From positions 28,638 to 92,637 of the forward strand of contig JAUWGP010000008.1 in NCBI GenBank assembly GCA_030606335.1: a stretch of DNA of 64,000 bases. The letters are read 5' to 3'. Position numbers and translations under genes: made by a program. Below the pieces are notes generated by a model. That model saw nothing but the letters and a program-made list of their open reading frames with translations, ran no database searches and was not told where the DNA came from. Source of the stretch: Caldifarciminota bacterium (GTDB lineage: Bacteria; Hydrothermota; UBA3073). Positions 5,352 through 63,797 of the stretch are shown in pieces (the stretch's first letter is position 1; each line of letters starts with the position of its first letter).

Positions 5352-5458
5352 GCATTACGGACCCCACCCTCGAGGGTCCAAGGAGAATATGTTTGCAGGC
5401 ATTCCGAGTATAACGGCAGCGGGGCTCTGTCGGATTTTCACCTGACTTTCCCTGCGTT
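5352..5458 (-). ncRNA. Cobalamin riboswitch
   Basis: Complement: GCAGGGAAAGTCAGGTGAAAATCCGACAGAGCCCCGCTGCCGTTATACTCGGAATGCCTGC; contains GGGAA...GGTGAAAATCC...CAGAGCCCCGC...CGGAAtGCC B12-box elements. Confidence 0.9.
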
Positions 5459-5462
5459 TTAA

Positions 5463-32077: not shown

Positions 32078-32191
32078 GTGTGTTTTTTTTAGTGTATAAT
32101 ATGACGGTTAAAATTTTAGATACCTCATCTAAAAATTATAAATATCTTTCTAATCAGTGAAATCAGTGGCTCATTTTAACATTTAACATTT

Positions 32192-33397
32192 CTACAAATT
32201 GTATCCTAAATCAATACCAAGTTTAAGTCCTTTCGTACCCATAAAAGGAATACCAACATTCTGCAAGCCAATTTTCAACCCTATCTTTTTTACATTGAAA
32301 CAAGAACCTATCCCTATCAATAATCCCTCATCCCCACCAAATGCCAGACCGACCATAGGTGTTAGGTAAGATCTAAAATAGTATTTCAGTCCAAATGACA
32401 ATTTAGGTGTTCTCGAATATAAACCTGTTTTGTTTATAACCTGCTCATAGCCAATTCCATATTGTATTTTACCCCTATCATATTCGTATGCAAGAATGAG
32501 ATATGTAGGGAGGGGGGTTTTAAAAGAAGGACACTCATATGAAGATGAATCTGTGACAGTGATTGCATCTTCTGTATTAAAAAGGATTAGAGAATCAATA
32601 TCAAAGGAACGCCACCCTTCTTCTGTCTCTTTATACCATTTCATGCCAGTATTAATATTTAAAAAACTAAATCCTATTCTCGATACATCTGAAATCTCTG
32701 CAGAAAACCCAAGATCTAATGCAAAACCGTTACCTCCACTTGCTAAACGGTATTTAACAAAACCATCTCCATTAATGGAGTAACGGGATGTAAGCAGATA
32801 CAGGGTTGCTTCACTTACATGGGCAGTATAAAATCCATAGATGTACCTGAACCCTACCCCGAGCGAGATATTTCGCTCTCCGAAATTGATTAGCCTACCA
32901 TAGGATGTCGTCAGTGATATTGCAGCAACTGTTGTCATGTCAGGTTTCTCAATTTCATAAACCCTGTCAAGTTCGTTTCCCCATAACATAAGGTCAAAGA
33001 TTTCCTTTGGGACTGTTCCCTTTACAATGGCGAAACTGCTAATGGAGAGACCAAAACCACCAACTGATAACTCAAGACCAGAGATATTTGCGTTTGTTAA
33101 AAGAGTGAAGCCTTTATCAGGTATGGATTTCATAATTTTTCTCTTATCCTTATCTTCCAAGAAGACCCCACTGCTGTAGAAGTTGTATTGCGAAAGGGAA
33201 AAGGAACTGTTAAGGACTCCTGCTGATGGGGAGATTATCCTTAAAGAGAATGCCCTATCTAAGGAGAGGTTGGCTGGATTATAATGTATAGCATTAATGC
33301 ATCTTGAGGTAGCTGTATTCGTCCCTGAGAGCACGAGATAGTCTACACTATTTAATAAATTTCCAAAAATATTGAGGAAGATGAAGAGATGTACCAT
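32192..33397 (-). CDS. Outer membrane protein (PorV/DUF5723-like)
   Basis: AIHYNPANLSLDRAFSLRIISPSAGVLNSSFSL; barrel-like repeated aromatic strands. Confidence 0.6.
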   Translation of the reverse strand: MVHLFIFLNIFGNLLNSVDYLVLSGTNTATSRCINAIHYNPANLSLDRAFSLRIISPSAGVLNSSFSLSQYNFYSSGVFLEDKDKRKIMKSIPDKGFTLLTNANISGLELSVGGFGLSISSFAIVKGTVPKEIFDLMLWGNELDRVYEIEKPDMTTVAAISLTTSYGRLINFGERNISLGVGFRYIYGFYTAHVSEATLYLLTSRYSINGDGFVKYRLASGGNGFALDLGFSAEISDVSRIGFSFLNINTGMKWYKETEEGWRSFDIDSLILFNTEDAITVTDSSSYECPSFKTPLPTYLILAYEYDRGKIQYGIGYEQVINKTGLYSRTPKLSFGLKYYFRSYLTPMVGLAFGGDEGLLIGIGSCFNVKKIGLKIGLQNVGIPFMGTKGLKLGIDLGYNL

Positions 33398-33429
33398 ATT
33401 TGTACCCTTATTTTTACAACGGTATTGTT

Positions 33430-33553
33430 AAAAAATCTAACACGTATTACACAAATACCTCAAATAACACGAAAAAAGACTTGAACTGTTTTTATTCGTG
33501 ACTATTCGTCTAATTTGTGATATTGGTGTCTATAATTTTGCATTTTAATATTT
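33430..33553 (-). repeat. Dispersed intergenic repeat, inverted copy
   Basis: Reverse complement matches 30361-30486. Confidence 0.85.
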
Positions 33554-33603
33554 AATTTTTTATATTTAATATTACCTCTGTGACCTCTGTGGTTTATCAT
33601 ATT

Positions 33604-35556
33604 CTATTTAACCCTTACTTTTACACCGCAATATGCACAGAATTCAAGGAAATCTCTTGCATGAATCATTATCGTGTCGGTCTCTGGAACATAAAGGAGG
33701 GCATAGGTAGAAAAGACAGAATCTTGTAAAATTTTAGATTCAAGCGAATCCAGTGTTATCTCAATTGTTTTATTTATGGAAGTAATAGCAACACCATTTT
33801 CATCGGTAGGAGCAGGCGGTATAGAAGCTCTTTTTACGAAAAAGGTCGATCCTGAGGGTTGCTCTAATGTCACAATATCACAGTCGAAACCAAAAGGAAA
33901 ATGATTTTCAACCTCGATATATAAATATACCGATTGTGTGTTTTTGAGAAAATTTGACAGGTCTTCTTCTACTTCTACATCTGTAGTGTCAAAACAGATT
34001 GTATCCTGTGTAAATGCTACCCTGAAGAGGGTATTGTTGTAAACCTTACCTGTGATATAAGAATTCTTTTCAAGTATTCCTGTTCCCTCATCGAGTGAGA
34101 CATCACCAGAGATGATAATTTCCTGGGGCAATATGTCTAATAAAGGTGCAAGGTTGCAATAGGACTCGCTATGTGAGGGAGGAAGGCAGGGTGTTCCAGC
34201 ATCCACCCAAAGCTCAAATGGAATAGATACTGATCCGAAAAATGAGTTACCGGTTATGTCTCCAACTATACTGAAAGGAAAGCCTATGGTGTTCCAGATT
34301 TCTATATACAGGAAGGTTTCAGCAAATTTGATACAGTTGATGTCATCATACTCTACAGGAATATCTATCCTGTAATCAATATTATCTGTTACTGGTTCAA
34401 GAATCTCTCCACCTATAAGGTTGTAATCAGCCATTTGAAGTTCAACTTTTACAGAGATACCATCATCGGCTGTAATATCCACGAGGTCATCCGTAGAATC
34501 TACGTCAACTATTAGTTTCATTGATAGGAGTGTGCTGCCCTGGGGAGAATTGGAGTTATCATAGGTTCTGCCAGTAATGTCTATCTCTTTCGTTATTGTT
34601 GAATGCGGTAGTAAAGAGATTATAAGAAATGTATCCAGTTGTTCTATGTTAGCAGTTAAGTTTCCACTAATTGGCAAATTGTTGTCTAAGTTTAGATGTA
34701 AAGAACCCTTAGAAAATTCTATACTATCAAGATCAAAGGAGAACGCTGAAACTAAGGGAAAGTCAAATTCATAAGTCGACGAGTCTGTAAATGAGGGGAT
34801 TTTGACTCTACCTGCTTTAATTTTCACAGAATCAAGAAACAGAAAAAAACAGACAGAATCATATGGTGCAAATCGTACATTAAAGAGTGTATCCAATGTG
34901 ACAAACTTTAATTGAGCTTTGACCTCGCTTTCTACAAGTGTATTTTCTAAATAAAAAGATGTGTCGGAAGAGGAATTACTTGAAATCTGGATAAAGACGA
35001 TGTTATTCATATCAAGTCCACTCACAGGTAGAAATGCTACAGAATCGAAGCTCATTTCCGTATGGTTAATAAGACTAACAGTGAAATAAACAATATTGAA
35101 ACGTACGCTGTCTATCATATCGAGTGTGTCACTTCTATATGATGTTGTATATGAGAAAGGTGGAATATGGTCCACAATAATAGATGTTTCAGGCAATGCA
35201 ATGCCTGCACCCTCCTCGATTATCTCTCTTTCTGATACTGAGTAATTACCCACATCCATATTGGCTATAAACATATCTCCAATATTTCTTTCTATTACAG
35301 TATCTATATTGCCAATCTCCATCGAATCATCGATACTGAAGGTATCTATATCGAAATCTAGATAGAACTGCATTATTGAGTCTTCACCAACCTGAATTCC
35401 TACAATCGGGTCAAGCGTATCCACAATGTCTATAACTGGATATCTTTCCTTTACAAGAGGGATATTTATAGTCAAATCCCATTCAGGAGCCTTGGGATTC
35501 CAGTTAAAGCAGCTTAAGAAGACAAGAGTAAGTATGATTACAAGATATTTTTTCAT
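33604..35556 (-). CDS. Large secreted lipoprotein, unknown function
   Basis: MKKYLVIILTLVFLSCFNWNPKAPEWDLTINIPL signal/lipobox; 650 aa beta-rich. Confidence 0.7.
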   Translation of the reverse strand: MKKYLVIILTLVFLSCFNWNPKAPEWDLTINIPLVKERYPVIDIVDTLDPIVGIQVGEDSIMQFYLDFDIDTFSIDDSMEIGNIDTVIERNIGDMFIANMDVGNYSVSEREIIEEGAGIALPETSIIVDHIPPFSYTTSYRSDTLDMIDSVRFNIVYFTVSLINHTEMSFDSVAFLPVSGLDMNNIVFIQISSNSSSDTSFYLENTLVESEVKAQLKFVTLDTLFNVRFAPYDSVCFFLFLDSVKIKAGRVKIPSFTDSSTYEFDFPLVSAFSFDLDSIEFSKGSLHLNLDNNLPISGNLTANIEQLDTFLIISLLPHSTITKEIDITGRTYDNSNSPQGSTLLSMKLIVDVDSTDDLVDITADDGISVKVELQMADYNLIGGEILEPVTDNIDYRIDIPVEYDDINCIKFAETFLYIEIWNTIGFPFSIVGDITGNSFFGSVSIPFELWVDAGTPCLPPSHSESYCNLAPLLDILPQEIIISGDVSLDEGTGILEKNSYITGKVYNNTLFRVAFTQDTICFDTTDVEVEEDLSNFLKNTQSVYLYIEVENHFPFGFDCDIVTLEQPSGSTFFVKRASIPPAPTDENGVAITSINKTIEITLDSLESKILQDSVFSTYALLYVPETDTIMIHARDFLEFCAYCGVKVRVK

Positions 35557-35603
35557 GGAATAAATAGAAGTAAAATTTTACTACTATCTGGTATATCAAT
35601 ACT

Positions 35604-35632
35604 ATAATAATATTAATTTTAGCAAAAGTCAA
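35604..35632 (-). promoter_or_regulatory. Promoter of the 33604-35556 gene
   Basis: Complement TTGACT tttgctaaaattaatat TATTAT (17-bp spacer). Confidence 0.55.
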
Positions 35633-35656
35633 GTAAAAAGTTTTAAAAAAGGTCAT

Positions 35657-35917
35657 GGGGTCAGGTCTTTAGTTTTAAGTTTTCATATACCCTTATAAAC
35701 TATTCTCTTAAGGTGTAGGTTTTTAATATATGAATTTCAAAATATTTAACAATAATTGGGACATTGATTTAACCCGAGCTGGACATTTTCACCATAATTT
35801 GAGAGGTAACGTGGTATACCCATCCAGTATATTACTTATTAACACTCTCATTATAGTATCAATATAATATATTTTTTAGAAAAAGTCAAGTAAATTTAAA
35901 ACTAAAGACCTGACCCC
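35657..35917. mobile_element. MITE-like element family A, copy 1
   Basis: GGGGTCAGGTCTTTAGTTTTAA ... TTAAAACTAAAGACCTGACCCC terminal inverted repeats; interior shared with two other copies. Confidence 0.9.
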
Positions 35918-35959
35918 AATTTCGCTCATTATCTTTAAAAATTTCATAATACTCCCTTT

Positions 35960-36955
35960 TTATTCTTTTTGGAAGTAGTATTTCCTTATTTTGAACCCCT
36001 CGTAAGTGATGTTAGGACGATAGACATTACCTTCTACATCGAGTGCAATCTCACTTATAATAGCTCCACTTCCTCCTGGGTATTGATAGATAGGGTGTAA
36101 TAAGTCTATCGAGGCTACCAACTCGCCTCTGTTATCATACTTGTACACTCGTGTATAACCTTTGGACTTTTCGGCGGGTGGGTAATATCGAGAGAAAAAG
36201 AAATTTCCGTTATTGTCGCTGCCTACAAATTGCATAAAGCTATTTTCCCCAGGTAAAGATATAGACACACTTTTGGGTGTAGTAAGATCGTCAAGAATTA
36301 TTTTACTTTCATTTTCGTCTATATCCCAGGACCATGACTGAATACCACCACCATAACCCAATCTTCCCTCTCGTTGAATCAACCCACAAGAGGAGTCCCC
36401 GATGTTGAGTTCAAAGAAATAGGGTTGGGGTCCACCGTAGAGCATTGCATTACCTTTATCGGTTACACCCATCCTTTTTGGCCTTGCTATGGATCCTATT
36501 CTTAATTCCGCTTCCCGCCAGGATTCTTGATACCTATACTCACCTAAAATTTCACTATCTTCCGAATATATTCTGATAGAACTTCCATCATCTGCATATA
36601 TCCTACCATCCTCAGCTACGGCAATGTCTCCAATACCATCTGCAGGTATGCTCCTTATAAAATTCCCTTCCCTGCCATATATGTTTATCCGTGAATTCAC
36701 ACCATCCGAAATATATGTATACCCTCTGGTATTTACAGTAAAGGATGTAGGGCCACGAGTCAGGTCACCCTCTCCCTTACCGATATATAATCCACACTCG
36801 CCAGGTTCTGACCCCCATCTCGCCTCTATTATTAATTCGGAGAAAGCTTTCTCTTCTGATGTCGCTCTCATCTCCCCACTTATAATATAAGTACAAGGAA
36901 TTATTATAAGAAGATTATAAATCACTGCTAGAGTTTTCCAATTTTTTTGTAACAT
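35960..36955 (-). CDS. NHL/6-bladed beta-propeller protein
   Basis: FTVNTRGYTYISDGVNSRINIYGREGNFIRSIPADGIGDIAVAEDGRIYADDGSSIRIYSED; ATG 36955 with GGGGGGA RBS. Confidence 0.7.
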   Translation of the reverse strand: MLQKNWKTLAVIYNLLIIIPCTYIISGEMRATSEEKAFSELIIEARWGSEPGECGLYIGKGEGDLTRGPTSFTVNTRGYTYISDGVNSRINIYGREGNFIRSIPADGIGDIAVAEDGRIYADDGSSIRIYSEDSEILGEYRYQESWREAELRIGSIARPKRMGVTDKGNAMLYGGPQPYFFELNIGDSSCGLIQREGRLGYGGGIQSWSWDIDENESKIILDDLTTPKSVSISLPGENSFMQFVGSDNNGNFFFSRYYPPAEKSKGYTRVYKYDNRGELVASIDLLHPIYQYPGGSGAIISEIALDVEGNVYRPNITYEGFKIRKYYFQKE

Positions 36956-37038
36956 TCTTCCCCCCTTGTTATTCTTTGCTCTCGATAATAAAAAAAACAT
37001 CATGTCCTGTGCGTCGCAATGGGCACACAGAGCATTAC

Positions 37039-37209
37039 GGGTCAGGCTAAAAGATAAGAGATAGTTGCTTGATATAGAGGGAGTGTAATAGTGGAATAAA
37101 AATATACCAATAAACTTGGGATAGAATATGAAGGAACTTTTTACTATGAGATATCTCGTAGCAATAGGAGTGAGACTATATTCTATCTCTTATCTCTTAG
37201 CCTGACCCC
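37039..37209. mobile_element. MITE-like element family B
   Basis: GGGTCAGGCTAAAAGATAAGAGATAG ... CTATCTCTTATCTCTTAGCCTGACCCC TIR with one mismatch. Confidence 0.85.
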
Positions 37210-37255
37210 CATCTCCCTTTTATAAATATTATCTTCTTCATAATTCCTCCTTATT

Positions 37256-38266
37256 TTATGGATTAACAGAGTAGTGATAAATTTTACCCCATCCAACAGC
37301 CCACCCGTCGTCTGGGGCTACGAAATAAACAGCGTTAAGCATACTATCTGTATTTAATACACACTCCCATTCTATACCATTATAATGGGCTATCTTATTA
37401 CCCACACCCCATCCATCATCAGGAGAAAGGAAATATATCGCCTCTAACCTCATACTTACCTCGGTTGTAGTCCATTCACTACCATCAAAATGGGATATAT
37501 AGGGTCCATAACCAACTGCCCATCCATTATTTGGAGAAGTGAAGAATATAGAACCAGAACGGGCTGGTAAATGAGGAAGAGTATCTGTAATATTCCAGGA
37601 GCTACCATCATAATGAATCATAATCCCTTTCGGTGGTTCTTTTTCAGATTCTCCCAACCACTCTGCAACTGCCCAACCGTCCGTAGGCCCAGTAAAAAAA
37701 ATCGTACGCAGCCTGCCCACATTTGGAACATCAACTTCTCTCCACTCATTTCCATCGTAATGAAGCATAAGAGCATTACCATATAATTTCTCACCAACAA
37801 TCCAGCCATCAGATGGTGAAATAAAATATATTGTGTGAAGTTGAAAACCTGGAGGAGGGATATAGGGGAAATTCGTTACCTCTTTCCATTCATTACCATC
37901 GTAGTGTAATGGAGCTCGATGACCTCCACCTAATGCCCATCCATTATCTTTTGATAAGAAAAAGAGACATTGTATTCCTAAAGGACCTTGTTCTACCATC
38001 TCCCATTCTATTCCGTTATAGTGCAGAAGAGGTCCACCACCTACCCATCCATCGTCCTTACTAATAAAGAAAACAGAACAGAAGTCTTCAATTAGAACTG
38101 GGTAAGGGGGGTGAGGATGATCAACCACACGCCAGTACGGAGATGGTGGCTCACTACCTGTTGGATTTTTACTCTTACAGCCAAATATCAATAAGAATAC
38201 AATTATAATGGACCACAAAAGATAGTTGAAAGTCCTATCATATTTATCAAAGTATTTCTCAATCAT
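37256..38266 (-). CDS. Ycf48/BNR-like beta-propeller lipoprotein with DDGWAVG repeats
   Basis: FGCKSKNPTGSE lipobox; repeated FFxSxDDGWxVG...HYDGxEW. Confidence 0.8.
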   Translation of the reverse strand: MIEKYFDKYDRTFNYLLWSIIIVFLLIFGCKSKNPTGSEPPSPYWRVVDHPHPPYPVLIEDFCSVFFISKDDGWVGGGPLLHYNGIEWEMVEQGPLGIQCLFFLSKDNGWALGGGHRAPLHYDGNEWKEVTNFPYIPPPGFQLHTIYFISPSDGWIVGEKLYGNALMLHYDGNEWREVDVPNVGRLRTIFFTGPTDGWAVAEWLGESEKEPPKGIMIHYDGSSWNITDTLPHLPARSGSIFFTSPNNGWAVGYGPYISHFDGSEWTTTEVSMRLEAIYFLSPDDGWGVGNKIAHYNGIEWECVLNTDSMLNAVYFVAPDDGWAVGWGKIYHYSVNP

Positions 38267-38305
38267 TCAAATTCTCCAATTTTTAACCTTAATAGTCAGA
38301 TTAAT

Positions 38306-38332
38306 CCCTACACATGCTATTAGTGTGTAGGG
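38306..38332 (-). promoter_or_regulatory. Perfect stem-loop upstream of propeller gene
   Basis: CCCTACACA tgctattag TGTGTAGGG. Confidence 0.6.
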
Positions 38333-38406
38333 CAGAATGAACAAATCTTGTAAACCTCGAATAGAAAGGTAAATGGAGTATTAGTAACTGATTGGTTTAT
38401 GTTTGT

Positions 38407-38664
38407 GTCAGGTCTTTAGTTTTAAGTTTTCAAGTAACCTTATTAACTATTCTCTTAAGGCGTTGGGTTTTTACTATATGAATTTCAAAATATTTAATGA
38501 TAATTGGGACATTGATTTAACCCGAGTTAAACAATTTTGCTATAGTCTGAGAGGTAACGTGGTATACCATCCAGTATATTACCTATTAACACTCTCATTA
38601 TAGTATCAATATAATACATCTTTTATAAAAAGTCAAGTAAATTTAAAACTAAAGACCTGACCCC
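38407..38664. mobile_element. MITE-like element family A, copy 2
   Basis: GTCAGGTCTTTAGTTTTAAGTTTT...AAATTTAAAACTAAAGACCTGACCCC; interior matches copies 1 and 3. Confidence 0.9.
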
Positions 38665-38756
38665 AATTTTGCCCTTGTGAGTTGCCAATAGACCACACGT
38701 CAGCGAAACAAAACTTTAAAGATAAAATAGTACCAATTATGAATAAGAGCGAATTC

Positions 38757-40106
38757 CTACTCGTTTTTGTCCCCTTTTCTAAGAATATTAACACTAAATT
38801 CTCCTAATTCGTCTTTACTGCAATAAATTCCAACCAATTGATAGTCACCAGCCTCGAGAATTAATCCCCTTCTCCAATATTTGCTTAGGACATTCCAATT
38901 CTCGCTCAAGTTCCTTACGTACGCTCTGTAGTCACCTCTCTGCCTGCTTTCTCCAGATAAGATAAGTCTTTGACTCTCTATAAAGAACGAAGTTCGATCT
39001 CGTACTTTTACTGTTTCATTTTTTTCTCTCATTAAAATCTTTCCTGAGTTTATTTCCAACAAATATAAATCTCCCGAGGGAAGGAATACACCAAGGTGTT
39101 TATCATCAACGGATATGAAGGGAGTAGGTCCCATAACTGTACTTATTTTTTGCTCTTGTTTCCATAGCTGAGTCCCATTTTTCTCAAAAAGGCACCAGAA
39201 TGATTTATCGTCTCCTTTGTCAAAAGTACCTCTATCATTCTGTGTAAACAAAAGATAATAATCTCCCACAGGGACAATAGATATCAGTTTTTCATCTCCC
39301 AAATCCCAGACTTGCTTTTCCATACCATCAGGTAGGGAGAATATTCCCAAATAGGACTTTTCATCTATTTGCCTTTCCTCCCACAGAGCCGCTAAGGAGT
39401 CTCTTATCTCTTTATCTGAAAGAGTCTTATGTACAGTTGCTCTTATAAGACGTATCTTTCGCTGACGATATTCCCAACCCGTCCATTTTTTTAAGGTCAC
39501 TGCTACTTCATCATCAGAAAGAATATGAAATATAGGGCGGATATCCAGGGGAAGGTTTAATTGTAAATTTTTTTCTATCTCTAAGGATTTTCCGTCCCGA
39601 GATCGTAACCATCGAGAACCAACATATTTCCCAAACGCTTTATATAAATACCCACCCTCAGGTGACACTTGGTAGCATACACCAATCTCGGTATCACTAT
39701 AAAGTAACTCACCATTTTTACTATAAACTTGATTTTCAGCAGACTCATAGTCACCACTCCATTGGATTAATACAGTCTCGCCATTGTCAGAGAGTCTCAT
39801 TCCCATCTGATATATCGTGTTAAGTCGTGTATCTTTTTTATTATTAAGTTTCCATAACAGTTCCCCATCAGGAGTAAAGTAATAAACGGTTCCCTCTTTT
39901 GTTTCATCATTAACTGTTGCGACTGCTATATGTCCACTCACTTTTGCAGCCCTAAAATCAAGCATTCTTCCTTTAAACTCTCTACTCCACAAAATCTCAG
40001 CATCTGGGAAAAGCTCTTGTGCAAGCGGTAATTTTCCCACTTTTTCCGATATCTTCTTTGACCACTCACTGTTCGAAAATTGGACCAAAAAGAGCACAAT
40101 CAACAA
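38757..40106 (-). CDS. PQQ-like beta-propeller secreted protein
   Basis: AVATVNDETKEGTVYYFTPDGELLWKLNNKKD...; signal-like N-term. Confidence 0.65.
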   Translation of the reverse strand: MLIVLFLVQFSNSEWSKKISEKVGKLPLAQELFPDAEILWSREFKGRMLDFRAAKVSGHIAVATVNDETKEGTVYYFTPDGELLWKLNNKKDTRLNTIYQMGMRLSDNGETVLIQWSGDYESAENQVYSKNGELLYSDTEIGVCYQVSPEGGYLYKAFGKYVGSRWLRSRDGKSLEIEKNLQLNLPLDIRPIFHILSDDEVAVTLKKWTGWEYRQRKIRLIRATVHKTLSDKEIRDSLAALWEERQIDEKSYLGIFSLPDGMEKQVWDLGDEKLISIVPVGDYYLLFTQNDRGTFDKGDDKSFWCLFEKNGTQLWKQEQKISTVMGPTPFISVDDKHLGVFLPSGDLYLLEINSGKILMREKNETVKVRDRTSFFIESQRLILSGESRQRGDYRAYVRNLSENWNVLSKYWRRGLILEAGDYQLVGIYCSKDELGEFSVNILRKGDKNE

Positions 40107-40676
40107 TATAGCATATAATATAGTAACACCCCCTTTTTTATTTTATAAAAGTAAACTTTTTGACATCAACAAGTTTGTCGTCTATCTTTTGAATACAGAT
40201 TTACAATATACCAAGTAATGTATTCTTTTACCTGTAAGTTAATGTTTCGCAAAAACCCAATTGCAATTGAGGAGGAAAATATCATATGTATAAAAGCTTT
40301 TCTAACTCACAATAAACTACTTAATAAGGTGGTAAGAGAAAAATACCTATTACAATATTTTTCCATTAATTACTTCTAAAAACACATATGAAATTAAAAA
40401 ATTAACAAGAAGAATGTAGTCCTCATTTTTTATAAGTAACTAAGCTAATCTCTTTTAATGGCGAGTCTCTATATGAACAGGAGATGAGTAACTTTAGAAG
40501 GATACTACAATTCTACATCTGAGGTATCTAGGAGAAAGAAATGACTGCGTGTTTCTTTATGGTGTATTTCTAATTGCAGTTCGATAGCTTTCGATTAGCA
40601 TAGGAGAAATTCAATAGGAATGTGGATTATATTAGCTCTAATATCCACTTACAATAAAGATAGAATATCTACATAT

Positions 40677-40705: not shown

Positions 40706-40996
40706 GTAAGGAATTTGAGAATATTCTCTTATTAATTAAAATTATATGGTTAATCGGAATTCTACATAAATTAGAAACTTGTTTTAACTTTCCTTCGAGA
40801 TAAATCCCACCTCAAAAGCGGCGTAATTGATTTATAAAACACTTATTTAGAAATTTTAAAATAAATGATGAGGTATTACGATTAAAGATAGTTCAAAAGA
40901 GTATTTAATTAAGAGAGTTAATCGACTTGAAGAAAGACTTAACCATTATATGTGAACTCATTTTGTGAGTTATATTCAGAGATAAGAAATAATTTC

Positions 40997-41025
40997 TTGA
41001 CATAGAGGGAAAGTTATGGTAAAAT
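40997..41025 (+). promoter_or_regulatory. Promoter of the P-loop kinase gene
   Basis: TTGACA tagagggaaagttatgg TAAAAT (17-bp spacer). Confidence 0.75.
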
Positions 41026-41066
41026 AAAAACATGCCCGGCAAACTGAGGATATTATAAAATGTCTT

Positions 41067-45702: not shown

Positions 45703-48504
45703 TTATCTCATTTTTAATAATTTCTTTATTTCAGTATATTCACCTGCAGTAACTTTAAGAAAATATACTCCAACTGGGACTTTTTTCCCAAAATTATTTC
45801 TCCCATCCCATTCAGTTGTAAACTTAGCTCTTGTAATTCCCTTATTCCACATGGTCTTAACCAATCTTCCACTTAGATCGTAAATAAAAATTTGAGAATT
45901 TTTTGACTCTGAATCCTGAGTAGTTAATTCTATAATTACTTTTGTGCTAAATGGATTGGGATATACTATAACACCAAGAATTGGGATTCCCTGTTCTCTA
46001 TTATCATCTGCTACTCCTATTAGCTTCCAGTCGGTAACTTTACCATATATATCATATCCTCTATGCCTACGGTCATCCATCCATGTAAACACTATGATGT
46101 TATGATTACAGTCAAGGCAAAACCGCCATGATTTTTGATGATTGTAAGGTAAAGAATCAGAGGCATTTATCTGTAAGTTTTCACCTACCACAACACCGTT
46201 CTCATATTTTTGTGCCATTATTTCAGGATCGCCATCAGGGTTCCTATAGTCCTCCCATGTTATCAAAAACCTTTCACCATAAGGGTCTATAGCTATTGAT
46301 GGTGACAACTGCCAATTCGTTCCTTCGTCATCGTTCACTCTGAAGTTAGAACCTATAGGATTTCCTGACGCATCATATGTTTGTGCATAAATGTCATAAT
46401 CACTACGACAATCCACCCAGCATATCACAAATTTTCCCTCACAATCCATAGCTACTGATGGTAACTTTTGGGAACTCCACGTTTCATCGTCATTTATTTT
46501 GAAATTCGACCCTAAAGGATTTCCAAGCACATCGTACATCTGGGCATAGATATCATAATTATGATTACGCTTGTCTTCCCAGCAAATCATAAAGTTGCCA
46601 GTACTGTCAATAGCTGCTGAAGGATAAGATTGCCAATTTGTTCCTTCATCATCATTTACTTTGAAATTTGAACCTATAGAGTTTCCATAGGAATTATATC
46701 TCTGAGCATAGATATCCCAGTAACCGTTATACGAACAACCCATCCAGCAAATGACAAAGTTGCCGTTAAAGTCCATAGCTACTGATGGGAACCTGTGATT
46801 TATTATCTCTGTATCGTTGTTAACCTTAAAGTTTATTCCTACTGGAATACCAGATGCATCATATATCTCTGCATAGATATCGAGATCGTTATTACGCCTA
46901 TCCTCCCAGCAAACCACAAAATTTCCTTTGTAATCCATTGATGCTGAAGGTGATAATTGCCATTTGGTCCCTACATCGTCATTTACTTTGAAGTTCTGAC
47001 CGCAAAAATTTCCAAATGTATCGTATATCTGTGCATATATATCCCAGTTACCATTTCGATCATCTTGCCAACAAACCATAAATTTTTCGCACATATTACT
47101 TGCCACTGAAGGATACTCTTGTGATCTTGTTCCTTGATCTTCTGACCATTTGAAGTTTGAACCAACTGGGTTGACGAGACTATCGTATCTCTGCACATAT
47201 ATATCCGCATTATCATTGCGCCAGTCAATCCAGCAAATTAAAAAGTTTCCGTTAATATCCATTGATGCTGAAGGTGATAATTGCATGCTTGTCTCTCCGT
47301 CCTCATTCACTCTGAAGTTCGACCCTATAGGACTTCCTGATGTATCGTATAGTTGCGCATAAATATCTGGCTCATAGTTATCTCGCCAATCAGTCCAGCA
47401 AATCATAAAGTTACCACCTGCACCCATTACTATCGTTGGATATTGTTGCCAGTTCATACCCTCATCGTCGTTTACTTTGAAGATAAGACCCATTGGGTTA
47501 CCTAATGCATCAAATTTCAGCGCATAGATATCACCGTCGTCTGCTTGCAGGTCCTGCCAACTGACAACAAAACTCCTACTACTGTCCACTGCAATTGAGG
47601 GAGGCAAAGCAGTTACTTCTGTATTATTAATCATAAAATTTGAGCCGACAGGATTTCCTGTGTAATCATATATCTGTATGTATATTTCCCAATCACCCTT
47701 ACGACTGTCTACCCAGCATAATATAAAGTTACCATTAATATCTATAGCTGCTGAGGGATAGTACTGCATATTCGTTCCTTCGTCATCGTTCACTCTGAAG
47801 TTAGAACCTATAGGATTTCCTGACGCATCATATCTTTGTGCATACACATCGAGATTGTAATTACGCGAATCCATCCAGCAAATTATAAAGTTACCATAGA
47901 CATCAATTGCTATCGATGGATAAAACTGACCAGCCATCCCGGCATCATCATTTACTTTAAAGTTTGAATCGATTGGATTACCTAAGCTATCATATCTCTG
48001 TGCATATATATCCGTAAAACCACTACGGTCGTCTTGCCAGCATATCACAAAGTTACCGAAGCTATCCATACCTATTGAAGGATTCGTCTGCCAATTTATA
48101 CCAGCATCATCATTAACCCTGAATTCAGAGCCCATTGGATTACCACGAACATCGTATATTAATGCATATATGTCAGAACTAATTGTGCTGTTGTCTACCC
48201 AGCATATCACAAAGTAGCTGTTTTTACACATAGCGACTGAGGGAAAATATTGATTACATCCACCTGTAGTATCATCATTGACAAGAAAGTCGTTTTTAAT
48301 CACATCCTTTGATTCATTCCAACCGAGTTTGTTAAAAATTTTTTCTTCTTGAATATTTGGATAAATATCTGCGTTTAATGTTAAAGAAATGGATAACAAA
48401 GGTATCATAAATATTACAACTGGCAATGTCCTTGTCTTTGATACAGGCGTTATATTGTTTCTGATAAGGACTTTTGTTTTGTATATCTTGGTTTCTTTTT
48501 GCAT
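45703..48504 (-). CDS. Large secreted tandem-repeat (propeller-like) protein with sorting domain
   Basis: ~13-14 units of GNFVICWxDxRNxxxDIYAQxYDxxGNPIGSNFxVNDDEGTNWQxxPSxAMD; C-term PNPFSTKVII...VPVGVYFLKVTAGEYTEIKKLLKMR. Confidence 0.85.
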   Translation of the reverse strand: MQKETKIYKTKVLIRNNITPVSKTRTLPVVIFMIPLLSISLTLNADIYPNIQEEKIFNKLGWNESKDVIKNDFLVNDDTTGGCNQYFPSVAMCKNSYFVICWVDNSTISSDIYALIYDVRGNPMGSEFRVNDDAGINWQTNPSIGMDSFGNFVICWQDDRSGFTDIYAQRYDSLGNPIDSNFKVNDDAGMAGQFYPSIAIDVYGNFIICWMDSRNYNLDVYAQRYDASGNPIGSNFRVNDDEGTNMQYYPSAAIDINGNFILCWVDSRKGDWEIYIQIYDYTGNPVGSNFMINNTEVTALPPSIAVDSSRSFVVSWQDLQADDGDIYALKFDALGNPMGLIFKVNDDEGMNWQQYPTIVMGAGGNFMICWTDWRDNYEPDIYAQLYDTSGSPIGSNFRVNEDGETSMQLSPSASMDINGNFLICWIDWRNDNADIYVQRYDSLVNPVGSNFKWSEDQGTRSQEYPSVASNMCEKFMVCWQDDRNGNWDIYAQIYDTFGNFCGQNFKVNDDVGTKWQLSPSASMDYKGNFVVCWEDRRNNDLDIYAEIYDASGIPVGINFKVNNDTEIINHRFPSVAMDFNGNFVICWMGCSYNGYWDIYAQRYNSYGNSIGSNFKVNDDEGTNWQSYPSAAIDSTGNFMICWEDKRNHNYDIYAQMYDVLGNPLGSNFKINDDETWSSQKLPSVAMDCEGKFVICWVDCRSDYDIYAQTYDASGNPIGSNFRVNDDEGTNWQLSPSIAIDPYGERFLITWEDYRNPDGDPEIMAQKYENGVVVGENLQINASDSLPYNHQKSWRFCLDCNHNIIVFTWMDDRRHRGYDIYGKVTDWKLIGVADDNREQGIPILGVIVYPNPFSTKVIIELTTQDSESKNSQIFIYDLSGRLVKTMWNKGITRAKFTTEWDGRNNFGKKVPVGVYFLKVTAGEYTEIKKLLKMR

Positions 48505-48571
48505 TTTTTTATCATTAATAATGCAATTTAATCTTATATTGAATCAACCTGGAGCAAAAAACAAAAATTGT

Positions 48572-51500
48572 TTATTTGATGGCGATAACTTTTCTCGTTA
48601 AGTTGCTTTCTTTATTCTCCAATCTTATAAAGTATATACCTGCACATAATTCATCCTCACTCATATCCCAACCTATCATATAGTTACGTGGTTCCCTGAA
48701 TCCTTCGAATAAATTCTTTTTCAACCTACCTGTGATGTCATAAACTTTGACACTGGTTCTGCTCCTCTTATTTCCGGGTATTTGATAGTTAATGTGTATC
48801 TTTGAGGAGAATGGGTTAGGATAACACTGAAGGGATAATTTTATATTCTCATTCTCACCATCTACACCTTCACCATATAAAATCCAATTTATGATTCTAT
48901 TCATAAGAGTGTCCCTTACGATTTCGTTATTGATGGATTCAAAACCAAAGGGTAGGGTAACGGTTCGACTATTAGCAATTTCTCCTCTTACCCCAGCACA
49001 GCCATCATCCTGGTATATAAAAATTGATTCCGAATGGGGATAGTATTCATCAAAAGAAGATTGACATATCTGATTAGAGGCTCCTGAACCACCGGATATG
49101 TTGAATTCCAATTCATTTCCGATAGGATCATCAATTATACCAATTATTGTATCAATATCAATATCAAAATTAATACCCCATGGGATTACGCCAAGAAAAC
49201 GAATAAGATTTCCATATCGAATATCATATATACCTTGACTGGATAAAAAAAGGTTTCCTCTATGTCGAGTAATATACAGATAAAGAATCGTATCTTCTTG
49301 TTGACTTATTGAACTTGAGTTATAATATTCCTGTTGATATGATAAATTACCACAGGTTGTTCCTGTCTCCCATACAATGATATCATATCGATTAAGAATT
49401 GAGGTATCTGGAGAACCATAACAAAAGACATCGTATACATCGCAATTGTAACCATTATTCGATAGTGCATCAGTATAATATGTTTCATAGAATTTAGGAT
49501 TACCTATAGGAGGTCGATTATAATTGTCATCATCAACCACCAATATATTCGCATTCCTAACAAAAGGTTTTGTGGTAAATTCCATTAAATTAATGTATTC
49601 TTTTACATTTCCAATACTATCCTCTGCTGTTATATTTATATTATAGAACTCCTCTTCGTTTACAGGTGTTGTCCAGATGTTTTGATAGAAACTACTGTCT
49701 ACTGGATTGAGTGTAATAGTTGTTAGAGGATTTCCCACTGGATTTTCGATTACAAAATTTGCCGAAAAAACACCAGAACCGTCGATAAGTTGCATTCTTA
49801 TAATTACATTTTCACCTGGCTCAAGATATCTTGGTATAACATCTGGATAATGGACAAACGGACCAACATCGTCATATATTTTTATACTAAGAGTATCTCT
49901 CCACTCAACTTGAAAAGAATCATGAATTTCTAAATAAAAGTTGACTAAATGACCATCTGGACAAATTTCTGATACAAGGATTTTATAATGTCCCTGAGAA
50001 ACAGCATAACCAAAAGGTTCTATATCACCATAGGATTGTTGATTCGAATCTATATCTGATATATAATGATCCCCTGTTATTATGGATGCTGTAATACCAT
50101 TTAATGGGAAAGGTCCTTCATTCCAAAGTTCTACTTGTATATATAAAAAATCTCCCTGACTTGGGATTGAATCGTCACCAATTATCTGCCAGTCTGATAT
50201 AGAAACGGGTCCAAGAGTTGTAAAACTGGTTCCATTTTCGATAATTGTTGTATTTGATAGATTATCTGTTGCTTGTATGTTGATCCACCAGCTATTACCT
50301 TCATAAGGGGTCTGCCATGAATTTCCATATATATGATCTTCAGAAAGACTATCATTATGAACACCATCATCAAATAGATATAACGAATCATATAGACTAT
50401 CTTCAATAGATACTATATAAGCTTTAACCTCTGATATGCCATCTGGGTCGAATACAAAAGCTCTTATTGTTACCGAATCTCCGGGCGATACCTGTGTTGG
50501 AATTGTCTCAATATTAAGCACTATTGGAGACTCAAGGATATAACCATTATTAAATTGATCTATTGCCATCTGTGCATGTTCTTCAAGTTCGTCTAATGTG
50601 TAACCAACTACAACTGCAATAGTGAAATCAACCTCTTCTTCAGGTTCTAAAACCTGATAAGAACCACTGCTTGATAGCTGTCTAACATCATGTGGGATTT
50701 GCCATGACATAAAAATACTATCTGATAAAACATTATATTTAAGAGAGTCATTACCATCATAATCAACCGGGTCGCTATAAAGCCATGGACGGAATCCAGT
50801 CAGCCCTGCATTTCCCGGAGTCTCGCACAAAACCACTCCAATGTAACCCGCGAGCGTAGTCCAATCGGGTTCGTAGTTGTCGTAATCATATGTGTATCCT
50901 AAAGATAGGTCTGTATTATAATCAACCAGGTCATCCCATGCCCCTTGATCGAGCTCGTCAATACCAGAACCAATATCGTTGTCCATAAAGAATCCTGTAT
51001 ATAAATTTCTTAGAGGAAAATCATTCATATTTCTTATTTTATAATTAATAAAAAAGTAGCATCCATTATCTGGCATATTCCAGGAATATGTTCTTTGTTC
51101 TACTCTTATACCAAGTCCCAAACCATCGTATGGTCCTGTATCTCTATCCCAGATAACAACGGCACTATCGGCTGGTATCCAGTCTCCTGCAACACCGTAT
51201 GTATCCTGCATAGAAACTATATCACCATCTGCTGGGTCAAGCTGCATCTCAGGTGGTCTTCTGCTATTAAGAGAGGTATCTGCAAATGGCCATAATCCCC
51301 GGTAGCTCTCTGGATACATACTGGTTTGTACAAAGAGGAAGCATCCATCATTCGGATATCCTTCTGGGATTCTCTGGTCGCTGAAATAGAGACCCAAACC
51401 GGATATATCCCCAAGGATTCCCACATCTTGCATTTCCAATACTCTCATTGCACCCAGGTCAGAGTGGTAAACACCTTTGCTTACATTGGGTACCCAAACA

Positions 51501-51880
51501 GTATCATCGGCACTTATAATGGGATATAATGCACCCACCCATAAACCAGCAGAATAACAATAGTATTGTTCAGAACCAGCAGGATATTCGCAACCAAGTC
51601 CTCTCAAATCAGGATATACATCCCAGGACCAGGTTGGAAATGAACCGTCATAGTAATCCCAGTCAGGAGGTCTCACAAATGGTCCACCTCCCTGGATTGT
51701 ATTGCTTACCATATAATCGGTTAAATCACCGCATCCTGTCCAACCTATAATCCAGAGGTCTGCTGGCTCGTTGGTTACTTCGCGATAAATTCTATTTCTA
51801 AGAGCTGGTTTATAGATAGATTTCGGATAAGGGGAGATACATAGTAGGGTAGAGACCAAATAAATTACAGATGAGAACAT
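48572..51880 (-). CDS. Large secreted protein with Ig-like regions and C-terminal sorting domain
   Basis: Signal peptide; C-term CYPNPFSSKIHINYQIPG...GIYFIRLENKESNLTRKVIAIK. Confidence 0.78.
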   Translation of the reverse strand: MFSSVIYLVSTLLCISPYPKSIYKPALRNRIYREVTNEPADLWIIGWTGCGDLTDYMVSNTIQGGGPFVRPPDWDYYDGSFPTWSWDVYPDLRGLGCEYPAGSEQYYCYSAGLWVGALYPIISADDTVWVPNVSKGVYHSDLGAMRVLEMQDVGILGDISGLGLYFSDQRIPEGYPNDGCFLFVQTSMYPESYRGLWPFADTSLNSRRPPEMQLDPADGDIVSMQDTYGVAGDWIPADSAVVIWDRDTGPYDGLGLGIRVEQRTYSWNMPDNGCYFFINYKIRNMNDFPLRNLYTGFFMDNDIGSGIDELDQGAWDDLVDYNTDLSLGYTYDYDNYEPDWTTLAGYIGVVLCETPGNAGLTGFRPWLYSDPVDYDGNDSLKYNVLSDSIFMSWQIPHDVRQLSSSGSYQVLEPEEEVDFTIAVVVGYTLDELEEHAQMAIDQFNNGYILESPIVLNIETIPTQVSPGDSVTIRAFVFDPDGISEVKAYIVSIEDSLYDSLYLFDDGVHNDSLSEDHIYGNSWQTPYEGNSWWINIQATDNLSNTTIIENGTSFTTLGPVSISDWQIIGDDSIPSQGDFLYIQVELWNEGPFPLNGITASIITGDHYISDIDSNQQSYGDIEPFGYAVSQGHYKILVSEICPDGHLVNFYLEIHDSFQVEWRDTLSIKIYDDVGPFVHYPDVIPRYLEPGENVIIRMQLIDGSGVFSANFVIENPVGNPLTTITLNPVDSSFYQNIWTTPVNEEEFYNINITAEDSIGNVKEYINLMEFTTKPFVRNANILVVDDDNYNRPPIGNPKFYETYYTDALSNNGYNCDVYDVFCYGSPDTSILNRYDIIVWETGTTCGNLSYQQEYYNSSSISQQEDTILYLYITRHRGNLFLSSQGIYDIRYGNLIRFLGVIPWGINFDIDIDTIIGIIDDPIGNELEFNISGGSGASNQICQSSFDEYYPHSESIFIYQDDGCAGVRGEIANSRTVTLPFGFESINNEIVRDTLMNRIINWILYGEGVDGENENIKLSLQCYPNPFSSKIHINYQIPGNKRSRTSVKVYDITGRLKKNLFEGFREPRNYMIGWDMSEDELCAGIYFIRLENKESNLTRKVIAIK

Positions 51881-51955
51881 TGCCTCTCCTTTTTAAATAA
51901 ACATAATACTATTTTTTATTTCTTTACTGTCAGATTCCTTGAAAAAACCTTCATT

Positions 51956-52789
51956 TTACTTCCAGGGTTCATGTGGGAGATAAGGACTTAAAGCCTCAAT
52001 TACTCCAGTATCATCTCTTCGATAAGCGATCCAGTCTCCATCGGGTGACCATGAGAGGGATGTAGCAGTAAAGGATAGAGGATATCTTGTAACGCCTGAT
52101 TGATGAGGTGTAATTACATATATCCACATATCATCTGTATAAGCTACTTTTTCCCCATCTGGAGAGAAGACAGGACATTTTCCAGTAGGTGTTATTCTTT
52201 CATATTCCTCATCCTCAAGGGAATATATGTAAATACCTGAATTCTCATAGACGATTTTGCTACCGTCTGGTGCAAATTCGGGGTTGTTTCCATCTATCAA
52301 GAAGGTAAATGAACTATCTACAATGGATATGAGCCAGATTCTCGATAGATAATCTTCAATTATAATAGAATTTTGGTATCGTTTCACGCCTTTATACAAA
52401 TCCAAAGGAGGCGTCCCAGGTGGTAGACCTATGTCATCTGGTGAAATAGTAAAAATGACATTGCTATCATCATTTGAAAGACATATCTCTAAAATATACA
52501 TGGCTTCTTCTGTGAAACATACATAAGTAACACTATCTTCACTATTCCAGTTTGGATATGTACCGGTTGTTATATTTACAATTGTTGTGTCAAAGGTTCT
52601 GATATATGATATAACCTTATCTGAGCGGTATTCATGGACAAAAGCTATCTTCTCACCATCTGGAGCCCAGGAAGGATCAACCAAATCTATATTTACTGGT
52701 GTAAGGACAGGTGTGTCTTCTATAATTACATGCCCTACTCTCCCACAACTACAGACCAATAAGAATAATATTACTATCCAGTCTTTCAT
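51956..52789 (-). CDS. TolB-like (PD40) beta-propeller lipoprotein
   Basis: LFLLVCSCGRVGH lipobox; DPSWAPDGEKIAFVHE, PEFAPDGSKIVYEN, PVFSPDGEKVAYTDD, LSWSPDGDWIAY. Confidence 0.85.
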   Translation of the reverse strand: MKDWIVILFLLVCSCGRVGHVIIEDTPVLTPVNIDLVDPSWAPDGEKIAFVHEYRSDKVISYIRTFDTTIVNITTGTYPNWNSEDSVTYVCFTEEAMYILEICLSNDDSNVIFTISPDDIGLPPGTPPLDLYKGVKRYQNSIIIEDYLSRIWLISIVDSSFTFLIDGNNPEFAPDGSKIVYENSGIYIYSLEDEEYERITPTGKCPVFSPDGEKVAYTDDMWIYVITPHQSGVTRYPLSFTATSLSWSPDGDWIAYRRDDTGVIEALSPYLPHEPWK

Positions 52790-52811
52790 AAAGAATAATT
52801 ACAAACTAATA

Positions 52812-55259
52812 TCACCATACAATCTGTATACCTACGCTAATCTTTCTCGGCGGACCATAATTAAAGGGGTCTCTCATATAATCTGTATAAGCTCTTACAT
52901 AGCTTTCATACCACTCATTTCTTGATATATATCCATTTCCATCAAAATCTCTCCTCTCGTCTGCACTACCATCTAAAAGTACGCCAACTGGTATCCCGTC
53001 ATCCTCTTCATAATGACTAGGAAATGTGAGACTCAAGTAATATTCTCTGTCGTACATCAAACCATTATCATCTGGTTTTCCAGTATTAGGATAAACATTT
53101 ATTATATTTTTCGTATTGAAAAGGTTATCAATTTCAACAAAGAGTGAAAAATTCAATCCGCCCAAATATATGTTTTTGGTTAATTTGAGATCCGTATTGT
53201 AAATCCAGTTCATACGCTCTTCATTATAGCCATCTACAATCCTTCCATTATCGGTTCTTTTAGTATATGTTAATTCGCTTTTTGCCTCTAAGATGATCGA
53301 TATATTGATATTATCTAAGGGTTTAATATTGGCGAGTTTCCATTCGTTATGGATATCCTTAGAAAGAAAAGCATTTATACTATGCCGTTGGTCCCAGTCA
53401 GAAGGATAGAGTTCCTCTCTCCCATAGAGTCTAAATTTCCACTTCGAGTCCTGTAACGTATAATTGAGATACAAACTTAAATCGGGTAAACTATATCTAA
53501 ACACTACTTCTATTCCTCTGGATGCCCCATATCCCTCCCTTTCTAACGATGAATAATAAGTCCATGGAGGATAAGGACTGTTATATGAACCATAGACATT
53601 TTTTAAAAAGGCAATAAGAGAAAGCATGAAATTGCTTTTGATATTGAATAATCCCTGTAATTTAAAAGATTTAACCTGAGACAAGAGAATTATTGCACCT
53701 TCTCTTTCAGTGTAGTTGAAAAGACTAAAATTATAGCTATAATGGGCAAAAGGATGATAATCCTTAATATATGACTCGTTCATATAATATTGATTGTACC
53801 CCAATAAAATCTTGAATCTATCTGCTGGATTATATGTAATAGAAAACTTAGGACTTATTTCCCAGGTCGATTCTATTTGTAAAGTATCGGAAGAAGGGTA
53901 ATCTACTACAAATTTCCAAGTCCCTGGATTATAATAAACAACTCTGACTCCCCAAATTAATGCAACACCTGCATTGTGCGCTGTAAAATCGAACCATAAA
54001 CTATTCTGTATTGGGTTTTTTTTAATGTAGTCCCAATATAAGTAAATACTTATATCCCTTAGTTCTGGGTCGACAACCGGTATAGTATCACCATTTGGTG
54101 TCACAGAATCAACAGTAGGCATTGAACTAATGTGATCAGTAAGCTTATTTAATATTGTAATCCCTTTAAATTCGATACCTGTATTAAATTTTAACCAGTC
54201 ACTTAGTCTCGCATCAAAATCGATATTTATCAAACTCACACTCCTCTCCATCTCATACCAGAACGAAGGTGAACCAAATAGGAAACACGCAGGCACACCA
54301 TAAGGATAAATATATTCGCCGTTCTCATCCCGTTCATCCCAACCTGTACCTTGGGCTGTGGTATAACGATGGTAAGTATACATCCACCAGGGTTCGAACT
54401 TAATATCCTCATAAAAACGTCTTTCCTCGTCAAAATTGAGGTCCCTTTCACCAATTATTTTATATTGATTGAAGTTTACTAATCTTGCTGAATACGATAT
54501 CTTATCATTGATCCTATGTTGGAAAAAGGCATATAATTGCTTGCCTTTCTCTAACCAGCTTGAACGCAGCCAATCAGGTTTATATTTTTCAGAGTTCTCA
54601 CTCGGTAAAAACCAAGGCAAGCCGAGAAATGTAGAATATAAACCGCCTTGTCCCCTTACTGCTATAAATCCTAAACCTATATTTATATTAGGAGAAACTT
54701 CGTATTTCATACTACCCAAAAGGTAGTAAAGATCACTATCAGTGTTTGAAAGGTCAAAAAGATATGAACGCTCATAATCTCTGGATTTGGTATAACCCAT
54801 AAATGAATATTTCAACTTATCATTATATATCCCTGAAGCACTCAATTCGTAGGTACTCATACCTTCATCGAATCCCGTCAACCATCCTCCAGATTTCACT
54901 CTCTCTTTTATCTCTATCTCTACCACATTTGGTCTTCCATATCTTCCTGAGGTAGGATTACCGTTAAAGGAAATTTTATTAATAAACCCAACTGGAAGAT
55001 TGGGTATATATAAAGGCACTCCATCAATCCAGTACTCTATATTTTCAGCAAAGCCTCCCCTGATATGAAGGTCGCCCCTACAATCTATGACTCCAGGCTG
55101 AAGCAAGAGGACATCCCTGATACTTTGGATTGGATATTTTTCCAAATCCTGGATTTCAAATGAGTGACAGAGAGAATCAGTTTGGAGATTTGTCGTATCA
55201 GTGATAGTCGCTATCAGAGTATTAGTTATGTAATTAAAAAGAAGGATAAAATACAACAT
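52812..55259 (-). CDS. TonB-dependent receptor-like outer membrane protein
   Basis: Plug: IQSIRDVLLLQPGVIDCRGDLHIRGGFAENIEYWIDGVPLYIP; barrel strands. Confidence 0.82.
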   Translation of the reverse strand: MLYFILLFNYITNTLIATITDTTNLQTDSLCHSFEIQDLEKYPIQSIRDVLLLQPGVIDCRGDLHIRGGFAENIEYWIDGVPLYIPNLPVGFINKISFNGNPTSGRYGRPNVVEIEIKERVKSGGWLTGFDEGMSTYELSASGIYNDKLKYSFMGYTKSRDYERSYLFDLSNTDSDLYYLLGSMKYEVSPNINIGLGFIAVRGQGGLYSTFLGLPWFLPSENSEKYKPDWLRSSWLEKGKQLYAFFQHRINDKISYSARLVNFNQYKIIGERDLNFDEERRFYEDIKFEPWWMYTYHRYTTAQGTGWDERDENGEYIYPYGVPACFLFGSPSFWYEMERSVSLINIDFDARLSDWLKFNTGIEFKGITILNKLTDHISSMPTVDSVTPNGDTIPVVDPELRDISIYLYWDYIKKNPIQNSLWFDFTAHNAGVALIWGVRVVYYNPGTWKFVVDYPSSDTLQIESTWEISPKFSITYNPADRFKILLGYNQYYMNESYIKDYHPFAHYSYNFSLFNYTEREGAIILLSQVKSFKLQGLFNIKSNFMLSLIAFLKNVYGSYNSPYPPWTYYSSLEREGYGASRGIEVVFRYSLPDLSLYLNYTLQDSKWKFRLYGREELYPSDWDQRHSINAFLSKDIHNEWKLANIKPLDNINISIILEAKSELTYTKRTDNGRIVDGYNEERMNWIYNTDLKLTKNIYLGGLNFSLFVEIDNLFNTKNIINVYPNTGKPDDNGLMYDREYYLSLTFPSHYEEDDGIPVGVLLDGSADERRDFDGNGYISRNEWYESYVRAYTDYMRDPFNYGPPRKISVGIQIVW

Positions 55260-55293
55260 AGGTGTAAAGTCGTTTCACTTGGTTTTAAAAAAA

Positions 55294-56442
55294 CTAAAAT
55301 GACCTAAAATTGATATTTAAATCAACCAAAATAAAATATCTTTCTTGAGGAATGGTAAATTCTATATTTTCACCACCTCCTATAGCTATACCAATAGTAC
55401 CGAAGGGTATCTTGATACCTAATCCTCCAGTATATGATGGAACGAATTTCGAGATATCGTAATCCTTAGGGGAAGGAAAATAGAAAATATAGGAGCCTGC
55501 TCTGAAGGAGAGATAACGATTTATTTGCCAATCCAATCCCACATTCATCTCCAATTCGTTTTCTCTAAAACTATAATACCATTCACCTTCTTCTACATGC
55601 CATCCGATATAGGACAATTGTGTATTAAGGGTAAAGGATTCATTGAGCTTGATAGATATGCCCGTGCTTATATTAATTGGATAAAAATACCTTTCATTAA
55701 TTGAATAAATTTTTGTGAATGTAGTGTCGCCATGGTTATTCCACCAATTTGTGCCTGAATAATTCCATTCACAGTCTCCCGTCAAGTAAGCAGGTGATTT
55801 GAGCACCAGTCCTATCTCAATCTTAGGACTGTATTGCCAATCTAATCCAATCAAACCCTGAAAACCTTTCACTTTGTAATAACACACATCTTTTGTGTAC
55901 TGTGAGATATATTTGTGTTCAGAATACCCCCAGAGTAATCCCAATGTCCCCCCGATAGTAACATTCGAAGAAATCTTATAGTTACATCCTATTGACAGAT
56001 TTCTCAAGATGGTCTGCAAATCTCCTGTATAGTCATGAGTTTCCAAATTATATGGGATAAAATATAAAAGTCCAAGAGTTGTTTTTTCAAATGAATAGGT
56101 AATACCAATAAGCTGGGGTAAATATAATACATCCTGACAAATAATTTCGAACGGATCCTTCCTGATTTCATATTCTGTACCAAATGTGATATTATTTAAC
56201 CTACCAATACGAGATGGATTTTGCCAGATACTTGCGGCTCCATCAGAAAACATATAAGTCTCACCCATAGCATAGGATTTGGCATCTAATTTAGAAGATA
56301 GCCTTGGGTTCAGAGGAAATGGTATTTCTTCTCCATAGCTCGTTACTATAAATAAAAGACAATACAAAAATAAATCAATTTTGATTTTTCTTAATATATA
56401 TCCTTTTAGTAAATACATAACACATTCAATGATATTTAACAT
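55294..56442 (-). CDS. PorV-like outer membrane protein
   Basis: DAKSYAMGETYMFSDGAASIWQNPSRIGRLNNITFGTEYEI; barrel-like strands. Confidence 0.7.
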   Translation of the reverse strand: MLNIIECVMYLLKGYILRKIKIDLFLYCLLFIVTSYGEEIPFPLNPRLSSKLDAKSYAMGETYMFSDGAASIWQNPSRIGRLNNITFGTEYEIRKDPFEIICQDVLYLPQLIGITYSFEKTTLGLLYFIPYNLETHDYTGDLQTILRNLSIGCNYKISSNVTIGGTLGLLWGYSEHKYISQYTKDVCYYKVKGFQGLIGLDWQYSPKIEIGLVLKSPAYLTGDCEWNYSGTNWWNNHGDTTFTKIYSINERYFYPINISTGISIKLNESFTLNTQLSYIGWHVEEGEWYYSFRENELEMNVGLDWQINRYLSFRAGSYIFYFPSPKDYDISKFVPSYTGGLGIKIPFGTIGIAIGGGENIEFTIPQERYFILVDLNINFRSF

Positions 56443-56472
56443 CCATTACCCTATAACCTAAATCAAATGATT

Positions 56473-63503: not shown

Positions 63504-63541
63504 GGGAAAAATTACAGTGGGATCATGGGGTCAGGGATCAT

Positions 63542-63797
63542 GGGGTCAGGTCTTTAGTTTTAAGTTTCCAAGTAACCTTATAAACTATTCTCTTAAAACA
63601 TGGGTTTTTACTATCTGAATTTGAAAATATTTAACAATAATTGGAACATTGATTTGACCCGAGTTAAACATTTTCGCTATAGTCTGAGAGTTAACGTGGT
63701 ATACCCATCCAGTATATTACTTATTAACACTCTCATTATAGTATCGATATAATATATCTAAAAAGTCAAGTAAATTTAAAACTAAAGACCTGACCCC
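63542..63797. mobile_element. MITE-like element family A, copy 3
   Basis: GGGGTCAGGTCTTTAGTTTTAAGTTT...AAATTTAAAACTAAAGACCTGACCCC; matches copies 1 and 2. Confidence 0.9.

Follow-up and report, generated by a model that had tools for sequence, protein, structure and literature searches.

The window analysed here is a stretch of 64,000 nucleotides from the genome of a Caldifarciminota bacterium (G000), which was compared with the genome of a sister species in the same genus (G001) and with a genome of the same family (G002). Near its middle, minus-strand genes are interleaved with two families of MITEs, A and B, whose interiors are unrelated, and the elements lie where an earlier note on this DNA had placed them. 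The features of interest are the following.

32079-40367: interval replaced by other genes in the sister species (G001:C126), with flanks that are 96-99% (left) and 87-97% (right) identical
35599-35637, minus strand: truncated remnant of another A copy adjoining A1, an 80-87% match to the region of A positions 208-252
35658-35916, minus strand (the transposase sense): MITE A copy 1 (A1), 259 bp tip to tip, located with a repeat finder
35960-37003, minus strand: gene for a 347-aa exported protein, an NHL-type beta-propeller
37039-37208, plus strand: MITE B, 170 bp
37256-38266, minus strand: gene for a 336-aa putative lipoprotein of repeats, with weak, sub-threshold YCF48/BNR propeller similarity
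38405-38663, minus strand: MITE A copy 2 (A2), left tip decayed
38757-40106, minus strand: gene for a 449-aa protein with weak, sub-threshold PQQ-propeller similarity
40978-41052, plus strand: decayed B/E53 fragment, lying within the right flank that is conserved in the sister species
63543-63796 (63528-63796 with its duplication), minus strand: MITE A copy 4, with a 15-bp tandem duplication of left tip and flank

All three genes interleaved with the elements had been labelled beta-propellers. This label holds for the 347-aa protein, for which NHL-repeat propellers of solved structure give a match at E 8e-9, but the other two show sub-threshold similarity only, and single-sequence structure models of the 347-aa and 449-aa proteins are of low confidence (mean pLDDT 39 and 50, respectively). 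The first gene, previously given a start at 36955, can instead start at 37003, which yields the 347 aa. The view that an element occupies every intergenic gap is correct for three consecutive gaps, from a 650-aa gene to the 449-aa gene, but not for the gaps on either side of them.

The terminal arms of A1 (27 nt) and of B (26 nt) are each 96% complementary. A1 and A2 are direct copies with an identity of about 91%, including an identical run of 37 bp. The terminal octamer said to be common to both families is indeed found on both, except at the left tip of A2, which reads GTGTCAGG and not GGGTCAGG. In the window GGGTCAGG occurs 9 times (1.47 +/- 1.09 in shuffles), and in the whole genome 110 times compared with 42 for the reversed control; the corresponding counts for GGGGTCAGG are 65 against 11 in G000 and 93 against 11 in the sister genome. 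Flank alignments show that the conserved ends reach a few bases past the octamer, with ATCATG (A) and ATTG (B) on the window-left side and CAATTTC (A) and CCATTTC (B) on the window-right side. G000 contains five copies of A and about ten of B, and the numbers in G001 are similar. Short tandem duplications (~15-23 bp, up to three copies) of an element tip with its adjoining flank are seen at 63528-63550 of the window, at G000:C16:48015-48045 and G000:C31:13891-13914, and at about 23.9 kb of G001:C126.

Single-stranded A and B form hairpins that their own TIRs close, and both fold much more strongly than shuffled sequence (z -5.6 and -5.0). Such strong folding, a constant orientation and a position between the stop of one gene and the start of the next are what would be expected if the hairpins were kept for regulation, as terminators or to stabilise mRNA between tandem genes; a role of this kind has been proposed for REP sequences. 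For A and B it is nevertheless very improbable, as copies are decayed, truncated, nested or missing between comparable genes. An Rfam search found no regulatory RNA at the A and B elements; its sole match is an AdoCbl-II (cobalamin) riboswitch at 5389-5466 on the minus strand, upstream of a 626-aa gene (3423-5303).

Transposons of the kind from which the elements derive are found elsewhere in the same genome. A family search identifies five places with Y1_Tnp in G000. At three of these the element is complete, measures 1.02-1.03 kb and has inverted repeats that start with GGGTCAGG. These three are listed here together with a third MITE.

C53:22364-23392: E53, intact TIRtron, transposase of 307 aa
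C51:21428-22446: E51, intact TIRtron, transposase of 317 aa
C28:87016-88045: E28, intact TIRtron, transposase of 323 aa
C2:24527-24701: third MITE (C), 175 bp, with E51-type ends

All three transposases score over the cut-off of Y1_Tnp (PF01797), carry an HUH motif (NHIH or NHYH) and have a C-terminal Bac_DnaA_C helix-turn-helix (E 1.3e-6 to 5e-13), two of them at or over the curated cut-off of that family and one just below it. They also match the NCBIfam entry REP_Tyr_transpos, two of the three above its cut-off. The TIR tips bear a GGGGWSAS-type motif, GGGGTCAG on E53 and E51 and AGGGTCAG on E28, and the TIR families of these elements are repeated elsewhere in the genome. In the sister species E51 and E28 are broken. 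The E53 transposase is encoded, at 97%, at locus L171, most likely on G001:C125; a contig scan with E53 gave a match in one relative only. The sister-species E51 (G001:C97, L257 2270-2330) has an internal deletion and a right inverted repeat split by a 16-bp insertion, and this split repeat is followed by 6.6 kb that are absent from G000.

B corresponds to E53 without nucleotides 149-1007, a single internal deletion of 858 bp, with 80.6% identity over the remainder, and its DNA still shows the start of the E53 transposase in the form of the retained N-terminal codons (IEYEG.FY...ISR.NR). For A, the reverse complement matches the TIRYT at G002:C69, which encodes a transposase of 343 aa: nucleotides 1-113 match its 5' end and nucleotides 99-256 its 3' end. 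The idea that A is what remains of a transposase gene on the plus strand was discarded because the reverse complement fits both ends of this gene. Both families thus have both ends in common with an autonomous element (B with E53, A with the G002:C69 element), a deleted interior and no complete transposase. With a probability of roughly 0.9, A and B are non-coding internal-deletion MITEs of TIRtrons (TIRYT / TnpA-REP subclass 2.1), a kind of transposon still present in the bacterium; this figure applies to the identity of the elements beside their parents and not to any rearrangement caused by the transposase.

The two families end in the same octamer because both derive from TIRtrons. As the inverted repeats begin with GGGTCA at most of the WOR-3 transposase loci examined, the octamer can be regarded as the tip of the whole family, unlike the inner arms, which are family-specific. 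Across the phylum (candidate division WOR-3) it is conserved as the tip of TIRYT inverted repeats. Literature searches returned no relevant paper for GGGGTCAGG itself, and none that treats WOR-3, a transposase and an inverted repeat together.

The names TIRtron and TIRYT refer to genes for tyrosine transposases that lie between TIRs, many of them with the GGGGWSAS motif (De Nocera et al. 2013, PMC3733652), and most TIRYTs have been placed in subclass 2.1 with helix-turn-helix C-termini (Quentin et al. 2018, PMC6006769). The elements described here share with them the single Y1/HUH gene with a C-terminal DnaA-like helix-turn-helix, the long TIRs starting with GGGGWSAS and the dispersed TIR-derived repeats; they differ in their occurrence in WOR-3, in deletion derivatives of ~170-260 bp that keep transposase codons, and in the presence of several TIR families per genome. 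Like REPINs and their RAYTs (PMC3116915), A and B are short, non-autonomous and palindromic, and by analogy a Y1 transposase probably moves them in trans. Unlike REPINs they have inverted-repeat ends of 26-27 nt, and the transposase gene lies inside a matching TIR pair. A GTAG/GGAG-type tetranucleotide at the foot of the palindrome, the mark of REP sequences, is absent, the element ends being GGGTCAGG TIRs. The Y1 HUH transposase is shared with IS200/IS605, the strand-specific single-strand mechanism of which serves as a working model here, but the near-perfect TIRs and the extra helix-turn-helix domain are not. The likeness to integron cassette arrays, tandem genes with palindromic elements between them, is superficial, as the elements here are transposon deletion derivatives with TIRYT TIR ends and no attC-type boundaries were seen.

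A mechanism that would account for these elements starts from the TIRtron, a ~1-kb unit with one TIRYT gene (Y1/HUH plus C-terminal DnaA-like helix-turn-helix) between TIRs beginning with GGGGTCAGG. As the anatomy and copies of A and B show, each arose when most of the transposase gene was deleted, and spread afterwards. By analogy with IS200/IS605 and REP transposases, the inverted-repeat hairpin in single-stranded DNA is probably what a TIRYT transposase recognises in trans. Insertions settle in intergenic sites, mostly in one orientation relative to the genes. Judged by flank sense, A and B have a common direction in each contig, C19 excepted (by transposase sense, A is reversed relative to B), and an antiparallel left neighbour was counted in 25 of 31 non-orthologous copies. 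Such an orientation bias would fit a strand-biased single-strand mechanism, with gene and replication directions inseparable here; GC skew was tried as a replication signal and dropped, since it could not be separated from gene strand. No clean two-sided empty site was found at the compared loci, and the second B site of C16, considered as one, was rejected since its flanks are too diverged.

The earlier note had proposed that each gene together with its element forms a cassette, and its expectation that the segment varies between relatives is borne out: instead of the same gene order with or without elements, the sister species has different genes. Two stretches of the window, 17.7-32.08 kb and 40.37-41.6 kb, can be aligned with G001:C126 (87-99% identity). 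The interval between them holds five minus-strand genes with A, B and A in G000; in G001 it holds three minus-strand genes unrelated to these, which encode a PD40 propeller, a HEAT protein and a 370-aa protein, with an A, an A interrupted by a nested B, and a B. A second exported-protein array at G001:C90 runs B, gene, A, gene, A, gene. A site at which the two species have different exported-protein genes, each set interspersed with A and B, between flanks that are mostly 96-99% identical, together with this second array and the direct copies A1 and A2, is what would be expected if gene-plus-element units changed places, either through recombination of direct A (or B) copies with one another or through the action of the transposase, and so shuffled the exported-protein repertoire. 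Such exchange is quite unlikely. No gene-element unit was found to have moved intact in the genomes compared, and the edges of the variable interval (32078 and 40368) do not coincide with elements but lie 0.6-3.6 kb from the nearest one. G001 lacks an ortholog of the 336-aa gene (best match 41%), and no intact element pair lies near the paralogues of this gene at G000:C38, G001:C28 and G001:C74; at G000:C38 there is a lone E28-type end at a distance of 157 bp. Many further changes occur away from elements, among them an 11-kb difference at C4:74447-85802 with no element at either edge. Window 45810-56454 (~10.6 kb), likewise free of elements at its edges, contains large Por_Secre_tail exported-protein genes that are absent at the same place in G001.

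At other loci, differences between the two species do stop at elements. Between G000:C19 and G001:C144 there is a 22-kb difference (net of elements) with its end 1 bp away from B; between C16 and C102 there is one of 1.4 kb, which stops at a distance of 2 bp from B. At the E51 locus the two species differ by 1 kb on the left end and by 6.6 kb on the right end, and the flanks of C27 and C111 agree up to the base before the left end of B and then diverge. Over ~320 kb compared, an element end is no more than 15 bp away in 7 of 26 events, where random intergenic positions would give 1.2, with four of the 26 found through queried element flanks or added by hand. When those four are left out, 3 of 22 events are at element ends (about one expected; p ~0.08 by our own arithmetic), so the excess free of ascertainment is weak. 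Element-end rearrangement is therefore possible at some loci and cassette exchange unproven, because many events, including both interval edges, are off elements and because insertions at E53, C11, C6, C26 and C20:929 are stable and orthologous.

These data can also be explained by a hypervariable locus that turns over by horizontal transfer or flank recombination while TIRtron MITEs accumulate harmlessly. This explanation, which competes with the rearrangement part of the interpretation only and leaves the identity of the elements unaffected, has slightly less than an even chance of being right. It agrees with the 19 of 22 gene-content breakpoints in the unbiased set that lie away from elements, with the stable insertions beside ordinary genes and with the variety of adjoining genes elsewhere, which encode Por_Secre_tail cargo, PD40 and SBBP propellers, HEAT, TPR and transglutaminase proteins. 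The same variety ties the elements to variable exported-protein loci in general. Passive accumulation alone does not predict that several large differences stop 1-6 bp from an element tip. Two further neighbours are of note. In the sister species a small HicB-like reading frame has an A element at its 3' end (L147 reverse complement 6950-7160, at 25.6 kb of G001:C126), and a T9SS-cargo gene beside B in G000:C31 (L241 6275-7402) is 95% identical to G001:C45:5498-6625 (L258), a different locus near a C-type element site, which makes a relocation possible.

At some loci DNA beside an element end has been gained or lost precisely at that end, which would be expected if the transposase now and then cut one element end and an unrelated site. 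The propeller genes are not carried by the elements but adjoin them within a hypervariable exported-protein locus. The odds between a transposase that causes rearrangements at some element ends and passive accumulation are close to even. A broader role, in which TIRYT-derived elements repeatedly serve as sites of rearrangement and so make the exported-protein genes of this WOR-3 genus turn over rapidly, is unlikely; the transposase would then join one element end to distant sites, and genes nearby would be deleted or replaced.

The derivation of A and B from TIRtrons explains the puzzle of one octamer on otherwise unrelated repeats. TIRYT elements and the mini-elements descended from them thereby gain a place in a little-known uncultured phylum, where parents occur next to derivatives and two sister genomes are at hand for asking whether such elements reshape exported-protein gene content.
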